A stretch of 64,000 nt of DNA from Bacteroides sp. Marseille-P3684 (lineage in GTDB: Bacteria > Bacteroidota > Bacteroidia > Bacteroidales > Bacteroidaceae), in contig NZ_LT985808.1 in the NCBI RefSeq assembly GCF_900291465.1, positions 405,564-469,563 on the forward strand, read 5' to 3'. A model generated the notes under the pieces. It was not told the DNA's origin. It worked only from the letters and a program-made list of their open reading frames with translations, and did not search any database. Each line of letters starts with the position of its first letter. Position 1 is the first letter of the stretch. The translations under genes were made by a program, and so were the position numbers. Of the stretch, positions 1,984 to 52,968 are shown piece after piece.

Positions 1984-3935
1984 AGTTCGTAAAAGTTATA
2001 GTTGTTTTGGTAGTAATCAATTGTTTTCAGTCTTTTATATCCTCCTTCAATGAACATTCTCATTTGATTAGTGTAATTAGGGCTTTTCATGTTACTGGAT
2101 GCCCCATATGGGTGACATGTTAAAGAAATGCGATTTCTTAAATCAACAATCATTCTAAAGGCACTAGCTTCTTCTGCATATAATTTCCCTTTCTCAAAAT
2201 AAGGTCGAACCGTATTTATTGAGTCTGGGACTCCTCCTATAGGCAATGAGACTTCGCCCCTTCTCAAAAATTGAATATTCTCTAATTTTTGTCCTTTATA
2301 GTATCTTTTCTTTACCCAACTCAAACAATCCACTATTTCTTGGACTGTAGCAATTTTTATAATGTCTGGATTTTTGGAACATACATAATATTTTTCTTTA
2401 TACTTATAAAAAAATAAGGCAAAAATAGCTGCTGCTTCTGATTGTGGGCAAGCATTGCCATCCCAATCCCTTAATAAACCAAGGAGAGGAGCAATAGACT
2501 TATAACTGTTTAACTCAGGTTGATACAATGCAGACAAATCAACATTTCTGATTATAGGAAGAGAGATTTTGTAATCGAAAAGAATCGACTTCAAATCATC
2601 TATGGAGAACAATTCTGTAGCATTCAAAATATCCTTTATCCGATTGGATCGGGAATTCTCATGTTGATAAACTAATCCTTTAATCTTTCCTATAGGGCGA
2701 TGAGTGTCTGTTACATTTAAGGGAGATTGATTAGCCGAGACTATGTATCCACAAGCAGGATTCTTTTCTACGACAAGATTATCTTTATAGTATTGTGCAG
2801 ACAATTCTTCTCGCAAATGACAGACATCTAATACATCTTTATAATGCAATGATTCATCCTCTCTAACTTTCTCATGAGAGTTATGAACATAGAGTAAATT
2901 ATTGTCCTTATCTATACATACAAGGTCCAAATAGGTATATCGAGATTGTCTTAAAAGATTTAATGCTTCGCTATTCGATTTGCACACATTAAGCTTATGC
3001 ACCATCTCAGCACCAAACTGTTTGCCTAGCATATCTATTAAAATGAGATAAAATGTACCTTTGATTTCAATTATATTACCAAATTCGGATTCATAGAAGT
3101 TCTTTATGATAGGTATTGGTATTTTACCGTATAATTTGATATAATTTTTATATGTGCATCTTTTCAATAGGATTTCTTTCCCATCATAAAGAAAAGATTT
3201 TACCCGTCCGAACCTCTTTTGAACATCTATTTTATAGATGGTATACATTTCAGGATAGCTAGCTGTTGAACCCCATGCGATCTGAAAGTTCGTTCCCATA
3301 AATATTGAGAATGAACATGGCAATATAAATCCGTGGTACTCAATGTTTTCACTATCTTCTATGCTCAAATGAACTTCATAATAAGAAAATATGCCCTCAA
3401 GCATTTGATGTGGGCTGACTGCAATTAAAGAACTTTTGCTTGCGCTTTTGTTCGCCCCTATTGCTATCGCATTTGATCCCTCTTTATGAGGTAATCTACG
3501 GCTTTGTTTTTTATTTAAATAAGAATACGGTTTGTCTATTTGAATGCCTATCACCTCCATTAGATGCTGAACCTGAAGCAGATCAACAGAATTAACAGGA
3601 AATATGGAAGGATCCAAGACATTTTCTTCGTGTTCTTTGGCATACTGGTTTATTCCACTACAATATGAATCTGCAAGAGACTTGTATTCATCAGAAATAG
3701 TTGGAAGCAAGTCGAGTGTTTTACCTTGGATATCGAAAAAGAATGAAAGAAAATCAAGATATGGGCCATCCCAATCATCGAAGTGTCCAGATTTAAACTT
3801 TATGGCTAAAAACCACAATTGTAGAGTATGAAAATCATCTTCACTATGAACGTACGCTATAGCTTTGGCTGCATCAAAACTTGTTTTAGCCATTATATGC
3901 GGTGTTCCATAATCATCTCGATATATTTTTGCCAT
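1980..3935 (-). CDS. Penicillin-acylase-family (S45, Ntn) amidohydrolase without signal peptide
   Basis: The 651-aa protein opens with IYRDDYGTPHI, the N-terminal signature of S45 acylases. The segment KEGSNAIAIG (151-160) contains the Gly-Ser autocleavage site, making Ser154 the predicted N-terminal nucleophile of the beta subunit. It is followed by SPHQM (nDPH-like), a G-x-N..IAWGST region, and a C-terminal HPYGASSNMKSPNYTNQ block like the family's GQSGNPxSPHY. There is no signal peptide, whereas typical penicillin and homoserine-lactone acylases are exported, so this one probably acts in the cytoplasm, either trimming an N-acyl group or forming an amide. It is the first gene of the four-gene operon and overlaps the next by 4 nt. 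Family is clear; substrate is unknown. Confidence 0.8.
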   Translation of the reverse strand: MAKIYRDDYGTPHIMAKTSFDAAKAIAYVHSEDDFHTLQLWFLAIKFKSGHFDDWDGPYLDFLSFFFDIQGKTLDLLPTISDEYKSLADSYCSGINQYAKEHEENVLDPSIFPVNSVDLLQVQHLMEVIGIQIDKPYSYLNKKQSRRLPHKEGSNAIAIGANKSASKSSLIAVSPHQMLEGIFSYYEVHLSIEDSENIEYHGFILPCSFSIFMGTNFQIAWGSTASYPEMYTIYKIDVQKRFGRVKSFLYDGKEILLKRCTYKNYIKLYGKIPIPIIKNFYESEFGNIIEIKGTFYLILIDMLGKQFGAEMVHKLNVCKSNSEALNLLRQSRYTYLDLVCIDKDNNLLYVHNSHEKVREDESLHYKDVLDVCHLREELSAQYYKDNLVVEKNPACGYIVSANQSPLNVTDTHRPIGKIKGLVYQHENSRSNRIKDILNATELFSIDDLKSILFDYKISLPIIRNVDLSALYQPELNSYKSIAPLLGLLRDWDGNACPQSEAAAIFALFFYKYKEKYYVCSKNPDIIKIATVQEIVDCLSWVKKRYYKGQKLENIQFLRRGEVSLPIGGVPDSINTVRPYFEKGKLYAEEASAFRMIVDLRNRISLTCHPYGASSNMKSPNYTNQMRMFIEGGYKRLKTIDYYQNNYNFYEL

Positions 3936-11659: not shown

Positions 11660-11905
11660 GAAATCTTGAGGTGCAAAAATTCCACCTCAAGTTGGGGAGG
11701 ACGCCGATACAATCCCTACGCTTTCACGGAACAGGGTATATACATGCTAATGACGGTTCTAAAAGGAGATTTGGCCACCAAGCAAAGTAAAGCCTTAATT
11801 CGCATCTTCAAACAAATGAAAGACTACATTGTGGACAATCAGCCTTTGTTGGGGCAAAGGGAGTATTTGCAACTTCATCCTCGAAAGATGGCGGCAATAA
11901 GGTAA
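11660..11905 (+). pseudogene. ORF6N-domain (phage antirepressor-like) gene remnant
   Basis: The frame reads WGGRRYNPYAFTEQGIYMLMTVL followed by KQMKDYIVDNQPLLGQREYLQL, which is the C-terminal half of the ORF6N domain and linker found in phage-type antirepressors in Bacteroidales. The N-terminal half (with the ROC/DVDLA part of the domain) is missing and the frame ends soon after the linker, so this is a fragment. It sits in an AT-rich stretch with no other gene, consistent with debris from a mobile element. Confidence 0.6.
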
Positions 11906-12334
11906 CAACGATTACAGCGGTCACGGATGGCGAAATATATCATCCAATTATAAATCAACTTATTCAAAACCCAGAATTGACACTGAGGTGAATTCAAACC
12001 GAAAACGATCATTTATAACGGTTTTCGACACGAACCCGGGAAAATCTAAATTTGAGACGGGGTTATGCATACTTCCAAGTCACTACTGTCCACTTTTTTA
12101 TTTATACTGGCAGCAAATTCTTTACGCCCGGCATGAGGATGAGCATCTATCTATTCGACATTTCACATCCCGACACATTGCTATAAAAATCCCCCAATCT
12201 GCTGACACAATTTCTCAAAACAGTATTTTCAGCTAACGCGTACTTTTGAGAAATGGACCCTTCCAGCGAGTAAATGCTAAACCCGATTAACACAAATCGC
12301 CTATTTCACCCGCATATTTTGCATTTATAAACAC

Positions 12335-12439
12335 AAAACAGCTGTTTTTCATGCGCGAAACAATATTGTTTCGCATGTCAAACACTTGTGTTTGGCTCGT
12401 CAAACAATATTGTTTGGCGGGTGAAACAATATTGTTTCA
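12335..12439. repeat. Array of five palindromes with about 22-bp period
   Basis: Five perfect or near-perfect palindromes follow one another: AAAACAGCTGTTTT (12335-12348), GCGAAACAATATTGTTTCGC (12355-12374), CAAACACTTGTGTTTG (12379-12394, centre TT unpaired), CAAACAATATTGTTTG (12401-12416) and TGAAACAATATTGTTTCA (12422-12439). Their centres are 23, 22, 22 and 22 bp apart. All share AAACA...TGTTT arms. Such phasing places each site on about the same face of the DNA, as in arrays bound by a cooperating dimeric protein. Confidence 0.8.
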
Positions 12440-12611: not shown

Positions 12612-12655
12612 TACAAACAGCGACAAAATGTATTTTGCGAATCGCCCGAGAAGCC
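12612..12655 (-). repeat. Family-B dispersed repeat, fragment
   Basis: Read on the minus strand, CTTCTCGGGCGATTCGCAAAATACA and the bases after it match the second half of the repeats at 55051-55141 and 62843-62933. The first half is not recognisable here. Confidence 0.5.
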
Positions 12656-12749
12656 CCGTTTTACTCACCGCCCCGTATTTTGGTGCAAGCAAGGGCACTG
12701 TGGAGCGATTCGTTTGACACTTTGACAAAATGACAAAAGAGAATTTTCC

Positions 12750-22290: not shown

Positions 22291-22415
22291 GAATTTTGTT
22301 TACAACACCCTACCGATAGGTCGCTACCGTCGTACGGACGTGTCCGTAGCGCGGTGCGGACGCGTCCGTACGAGCGTGGCGACGCGTCCGTACGACGGTA
22401 CGGACCCATTCGCAG
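22291..22415 (+). repeat. Family-A 125-bp palindrome-rich repeat, copy 1
   Basis: This 125-bp block matches 34952-35076 at about 115 positions, with no gaps. It begins GAATTTTGTTTACA and is built from repeated CCGTACG / GGACGCGTCC units that form nested hairpins, including the palindrome GGACGCGTCC twice. It lies upstream of the ECF sigma gene. Confidence 0.8.
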
Positions 22416-22484
22416 CATAGTGCTGACGGACAAGCAGTTACGTTTTTCAATAAAAATAGACAAATTTCTATTTGTCGCGACGTT

Positions 22485-34951: not shown

Positions 34952-35076
34952 GAATTTTGTTTACAGTGCACTACCGACAGGTCGCTACCGTCGTACGGAC
35001 CTGTCCGCAGCGTGGTGCGGACGCGTCCGTACGAGCGTGGCGACGCGTCCGTACGACGGTACCGACCCATCCGCAG
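34952..35076 (+). repeat. Family-A 125-bp palindrome-rich repeat, copy 2
   Basis: Same length and orientation as copy 1 (22291-22415), differing at about ten positions and without gaps. Conserved limits are GAATTTTGTTTACA at the left and GACCCATCCGCAG at the right. Confidence 0.8.
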
Positions 35077-35195
35077 TAACCAACTGGCTTACAGCGGATT
35101 GAGAAAATACATAAATCTTTACAATTCAACATGCGTGTGAACGCAAGTGTGAACGCAAACGGGTGTTTTTGCTTGCACAGGGAGTGAAGGCGGTC

Positions 35196-52681: not shown

Positions 52682-52902
52682 GTTGCTTTCTGTTAAAGAA
52701 ACTAATAACGAATGGTTATATAGCTTTAAAATATCAAAACTGAAAGCTGCGATTGAGTTTTCAGCACCCAATTTCCGCATCCGCGAGTGTACGCCAATCC
52801 GCTTTTATGTGTATTTTTGCGAACGGACGGAACCGTCCGTATACCCCGCCGGAAGGGGCTCAAAAGGCGCCTTTGTAACCATCTGTGTATCAAGGCTTCC
52901 GT

Positions 52903-52968
52903 AAGCACCTGTCGGTACGTTCGTACGGACGCGTCGCCACGAGCGTACGGACGCGTCCGTACGAAGCT
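52903..52968 (-). repeat. Family-A repeat, partial reverse copy
   Basis: Read on the minus strand, the block GGACGCGTCCGTACG...TGGCGACGCGTCCGTACGA...GTACCGAC matches the right half of the 125-bp family-A element; the left half (GAATTTTGTTTACA end) is missing. Confidence 0.65.

Follow-up and report, generated by a model that had tools for sequence, protein, structure and literature searches.

The window analyzed here is a stretch of 64,000 nucleotides (C1:405564-469563; 57% GC) from a genome of 3.71 Mb, for which relatives and repeat matches indicate Bacteroidales. A first-pass annotation of it described five palindromes whose centres lay 23, 22, 22 and 22 bp apart, with no nearby gene to regulate, and proposed a binding array for a dimeric protein, for example a partition, replication or nucleoid site left by a mobile element, or a live operator cluster.

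Structure of the array

The array (12336 to 12437) consists of five 22-bp modules, with units at 12336, 12358, 12380, 12402 and 12424. The unit is a 14-bp dyad, AAACA-N4-TGTTT, followed by an 8-bp linker, and the start-to-start step is exactly 22 bp for all five units. Perfect palindromes of 14, 20, 16 and 18 bp lie within the array. The array is thus real. The single spacing of 23 bp is due to the first unit (AAACAGCTGTTTTT), a degenerate one in which the perfect palindrome lies off-centre; the middle unit (AAACACTTGTGTTT) has the non-palindromic centre TT.

Genome-wide occurrence and classes

A two-unit pattern search of the whole genome returned 292 matches, compared with 2 for the reversed control, and the window array and its relatives are far above chance. 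Single units scattered at random, which would have made the array a chance cluster of a common repeat, were not what was observed; across the genome, the units form arrays phased at 22 bp. The genome contains at least 120 of them, ∼80 belonging to the class of the window array (class 1; at least 82 distinct arrays with array model R2) and ∼40 to a second class (class 2), whose unit has the form GTACGGAC..GTCCGTAC. These numbers do not support a one-off relic. Class 1 splits into sub-types with a fixed unit order and the consensus Y-S-AAACANNNNTGTTT-S-R. A third palindrome, AAGTATNATACTT (class 3), occurs in phase with class 1; thus, a composite array at 589.4 kb is made up of class-1, class-3 and class-1 modules, all in phase. 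Confinement of the arrays to half of the chromosome was considered and rejected, since sampling and array model R2 showed that they spread over the whole of it. Searches of plasmids, phages and viral contigs gave no match, and a phage or plasmid origin was rejected on this ground.

Three class-2 arrays are present in the window, at 22309 to 22418 (22-bp step; GTACGGACGTGTCCG / GTGCGGACGCGTCCGTAC / GGCGACGCGTCCGTAC ..), 34992 to 35079 (four units) and 52900 to 52965 (two good units and a poor one). An HU-HIG DNA-binding gene (PF18291; 35303 to 35602) is located downstream of the second, its start ∼220 bp past the array. Similarly, an array of Parabacteroides massiliensis (L127) adjoins an HU-like gene.

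The 22-bp step

Across a contiguous 464-kb stretch of the same genome, 20 class-1 and 51 class-2 unit pairs were found at 22 bp, whereas 0 to 1 pairs were found at 19, 20, 21, 23, 24 or 25 bp. A sequence-blind lag scan of DNA from this genome gave 36 hits at lag 22 versus 0 to 3 at neighbouring lags. The same scan yielded 10 at lag 22 in 240 kb of a congener (G003) and 8, one of them a (GT)n run, in 400 kb of G019, a complete genome from another genus of the same family. In all three, 22 bp was the sole clearly raised lag, and 200 kb of Escherichia coli DNA yielded 0 arrays at 22 bp. The units found in G003 (e.g., TTGCAATTTACGTAAGTTTCCA, AGTCTGAAGTCAGACCTTTGTT and CGGAAAGGA-type) and in G019 (e.g., AATCAATCTAAGTTGATTTAGT and AGGTCGAACGATCGTTTGACCT) differ from those of the window genome, and the G019 arrays, detected by the sequence-blind scan, escape a scan for palindromes only. 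Dyad symmetry was significant for the arrays of the window genome but weak in G019, and it did not reach significance in G003, in whose main class the units are not palindromic. The 22-bp step is thus more general than the palindrome.

Conservation of the unit dyads

Class-1 dyads were 95% paired, compared with 34 to 51% for slid partners. The claim that arm complementarity is kept although the sequence changes proved correct for the inner pair (A-T in ATAT, C-G in CTTG/CAAG), with 18 double changes versus 5.3 in shuffles, but not for the outer bases, which in 145 class-1 units were complementary at a frequency of 0.41 versus 0.53 expected. The linkers of class-1 arrays showed no covariation and were less complementary than shuffled ones. 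Judging from these substitutions, the unit dyads are under selection, and the combination of paired dyads with non-complementary linkers and outer flanks is a better match for discrete dimer sites on double-stranded DNA than for a single long hairpin.

The element surrounding the arrays

A conserved unit of ∼560 bp surrounds most of the class-1 arrays tested; its left box spans roughly -200 to -75 and is followed by the array and then by the right box, which spans roughly +225 to +340. In the window, the left box lies at 12169 to 12276 (..CAGCTAACGCGTATTTTTGAAAAATCG..) and the right box at 12618 to 12732 (TGTATTTTGCGAATCGCCCGAGAAGG.. TTCGTTTGACATTTTGACA; model R1). With model R1, at least 91 right-box copies were found in the genome, many of them with a left box at a fixed distance. 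Some right-box copies hold a class-2 array instead, usually three CGTACGGACGCGTCCGCACCAC-type units on the 22-bp step. Class-2 arrays also exist without any box, including the three in the window, and box-less arrays carry the same units as boxed ones. The genes flanking the elements are unrelated between copies. The element in the window adjoins an ORF6N-domain fragment (11666 to 11902; PF10543, final third of the domain); no link between this relic and the array was seen at this locus. In several class-2 elements (L090, L094 and L096), a DnaA-box-like word, TTATTCACA, lies between the left box and the array, and repeats in the form of TAGGGGCGACCGGTC inverted pairs and CAATTGACAATTG runs abut boxed class-2 elements (e.g., L089, L095 and L096).

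The element ends share only TGTCA/TGACA motifs nearby, and no inverted termini or target duplications were found there. The single filled/empty comparison is at 1874 kb, where both flanks align to G003, which is without the ∼530-bp element; the sequences are too diverged for a target site duplication (TSD) to show. The orthologous G003 interval carries a 22-bp array of its own (GGGCGGAAAGGAGGCCGCCC..). Two other roles were rejected for the boxes. One frame of the right box is stop-poor, but with neither synonymous excess nor Pfam match it does not behave as a peptide gene, and a structured RNA was rejected because box alignments gave no consensus fold. In many copies, the minus-strand frame of the right box (e.g., window positions 12618 to 12732; SKCQTN..FLAPKYELV..GLLGRFAKYTL) has almost no stops.

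Placement on the chromosome

The arrays are intergenic, although two of those in G003 overlap mechanical ORFs, and divergent, tandem and convergent gene contexts are represented as in the background, with no promoter preference. A window array independent of any neighbouring promoter is therefore a supported reading. Between 405 and 869 kb, 31 arrays in 464 kb are 15.0 kb apart with a coefficient of variation (CV) of 0.45, an evenness equalled by 0 of 20,000 random intergenic placements (P<1e-4). Even spacing was also observed at 1.33-1.91 and 2.7-3.7 Mb (CV 0.45 to 0.64) and, more weakly, in G003 (P 0.03 and 0.05). Class-1/3 arrays occupy gaps between class-2 arrays (P 0.005). Class 2 is restricted to 10-1363 kb of the 3706 kb (label permutation, P 6e-13), and class 1 is almost missing from 590-909 kb among the matches listed.

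The lowest array density, 8 in 400 kb, was found at 2.1-2.5 Mb. In this stretch GC skew flips from + to -, and the flanking rRNA operons are oriented towards it from both sides, so that it is probably the terminus, which would place class 2 on the origin side and make its region look origin-proximal. Since the only ParB gene and dnaA (C1:2934289 and 2947344) lie at 2.93-2.95 Mb, within 13 kb of each other and far from the side that skew and rRNA strand suggest, this placement of the origin is tentative. A DnaA-box cluster marking an origin in the 405-869 kb segment was rejected, as none was found there.

Arrays in related genomes

A pattern search of 14 congeners detected neither class-1 nor class-2 patterns; right-box relatives were limited to one in G003 and a second, weak one in G002. 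Such absence of both the element and the array sequences would be odd for a housekeeping system. Conservation of array position between species is only suggestive: clear single cases of a match to a G003 array occur at 1874 kb by both flanks and at 3484, 3194 and 2110 kb by one flank, but position was conserved at 3 of 12 array-adjacent gene ends versus 3 of 47 others (P 0.09), a systematic test over ∼60 gene ends being not significant (P 0.09 to 0.31).

In a scan of 84,980 species for AAACA..TGTTT arrays with a 22-bp step, every match belonged to Bacteroidota. Multicopy arrays were found in Parabacteroides massiliensis (35 pairs) and Reichenbachiella agariperforans (17 pairs), and fewer pairs in Parabacteroides sp. 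PF5-6 and a Bacteroidales MAG. The Reichenbachiella arrays (L132, L134, L174 and L182) have conserved flanks of their own, GATGAAAGGAC.. and AAAAAAGGAGG.., and represent another boxed form.

Possible nature of the arrays

We tentatively favour the view that the arrays are phased sites to which self-associating dimeric proteins bind and thereby mark and organize the chromosome, some arrays being spread by MITE-like carriers, and regard it as plausible, though short of probable. Each 22-bp module would be the binding site of a dimeric DNA-binding protein. Since 22 bp corresponds to two helical turns, adjacent dimers would lie on one face of the DNA, in contact with each other, and an array could seed a short nucleoprotein patch. 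Classes 1, 2 and 3 would correspond to several specificities, presumably bound by paralogous proteins. The near-even intergenic arrays would then act as chromosome-organizing sites, serving as domain boundaries or as points of bridging or occlusion, and class 2 would mark one apparently origin-proximal region. Between species, the site sequence would turn over fast while the 22-bp geometry stays, and the ∼560-bp element may spread or capture some arrays. In favour of this view are the exclusive 22-bp step and its recurrence with other units in relatives, covariation within dyads but not between linkers, the even spacing, the confinement of class 2, the placement of classes 1/3 in its gaps, the low density near the presumed terminus, the box-less arrays with the same units, the composite array and the lack of promoter preference. 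Against it are the absence of the element and its array sequences from congeners, the non-palindromic main class of G003, the only suggestive conservation of position, a spacing that target immunity could also produce, and the location of dnaA and ParB. The first-pass annotation's idea of a dimer-site array, possibly nucleoid-related and element-borne, is supported as a reading.

The strongest rival, a serious possibility that we nevertheless consider doubtful, is a family of BrickBuilt-like MITEs, in which the boxes would be the ends, the array an internal minisatellite or transposase-binding region, the spacing a result of target immunity and the regional bias a result of origin-biased insertion via gene dosage. 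BrickBuilt itself consists of a leader, tandem 23-nt repeats and a tail, and is intergenic and species restricted (PMC4596501). The numerous right-box copies with a left box at a fixed distance agree with this proposal, as does the element missing from the orthologous G003 interval, and transposition target immunity could produce even spacing; the near absence of the element from congeners, a lineage restriction, is also explained. However, it leaves unexplained that box-less arrays keep the same spacing and that the classes avoid each other. Selection on the unit dyads, unrelated sequences on one exact period, also in other genera, the lack of matches in plasmids, phages and viral contigs, and the failure to find inverted termini or target duplications (with one filled/empty comparison, too diverged for a TSD) also argue against it.

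The other two explanations fare worse. Transcribed hairpin arrays working as RNA (termination, mRNA stability or sRNA) would agree with the strong fold of the window array (z -7.4 and -5.7), but an extended fold is expected from palindromic units alone, and RNA needs no exact 22-bp phasing. The poorly complementary linkers, Rfam matches that were sub-threshold only, the boxes without a consensus fold and the independence from gene orientation make this role improbable. Operators of a global transcription factor would likewise be palindromic, dimer-type and multisite, yet the flanking genes are unrelated, gene contexts are as in the background and even spacing is left unexplained, so that we consider them very unlikely. 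A local operator cluster is not supported, given at least 120 arrays in background gene-orientation context.

In general, the data suggest either an undescribed mode of chromosome marking or organization or an unusual mobile repeat family. Under the favoured reading, the arrays would be direct targets for the open question of how Bacteroidota chromosomes are organized; we are not aware of any described counterpart of MatP, SlmA or Noc in this phylum. If they are mobile, they constitute a repeat family with near-regular spacing in which site sequences turn over and the 22-bp geometry is kept. A wider version, which we think rather unlikely, is that Bacteroidota, or several lineages of it, share a chromosome-organizing system of even arrays with a universal 22-bp step, which fast-evolving paralogous dimeric proteins would read; geometry, not sequence, would be conserved between species, and different specificities would mark different regions of the chromosome. 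Whichever reading holds, scanning for a 22-bp lag without regard to sequence is inexpensive and can be applied to every Bacteroidota genome.

Comparison with known systems

CRISPR was rejected as an identity for the arrays, which consist of 14-bp palindromes plus 8-bp linkers with varying units and not of near-identical repeats with unrelated spacers. The literature searched on 22-bp arrays or nucleoid organizers in Bacteroidota offered nothing closer than BrickBuilt, a MITE/minisatellite of Porphyromonas gingivalis with a 23-nt step, some copies of which are without leader and tail (Klein 2015, PMC4596501). Like BrickBuilt, the boxed elements have an intergenic leader, a tandem short repeat and a tail, and are dispersed and species restricted within Bacteroidales; several arrays, for their part, are without boxes. 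Unlike BrickBuilt, the arrays have a step of exactly 22 bp, on which at least three unrelated palindromes are placed, their spacing is even, and the position of class 2 is regional. Terminal inverted repeats and TSDs were not found here, with one filled/empty comparison too diverged to show a TSD. REP/BIME sequences, associated with RAYT transposases, are 20-40-bp hairpins with GTAG or CGTC tags (PMC2817692, PMC3733652). The arrays resemble them as clustered, high-copy intergenic palindromes, but are 14-20-bp dyads with a fixed 22-bp step and several specificities.

The iterons of plasmid R6K form a 22-bp same-face array of Rep-binding sites. The arrays share this step, but at least 120 copies are chromosomal and a linked rep gene was not seen. 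A reading as parS arrays was rejected, since the genome, although it has a ParB gene, contains 0 sites within 1 mismatch of canonical parS (TGTTTCACGTGAAACA). MatP/matS, Noc/NBS, SlmA/SBS and ParB/parS rely on many dispersed palindromic single sites, biased relative to the origin or the terminus. The arrays are similarly dispersed, with a similar density (tens of kb), and may likewise be biased, with class 2 at 10-1363 kb and few arrays at 2.1-2.5 Mb, the presumed origin lying away from dnaA and ParB. Unlike the single sites of those systems, however, they are phased arrays.
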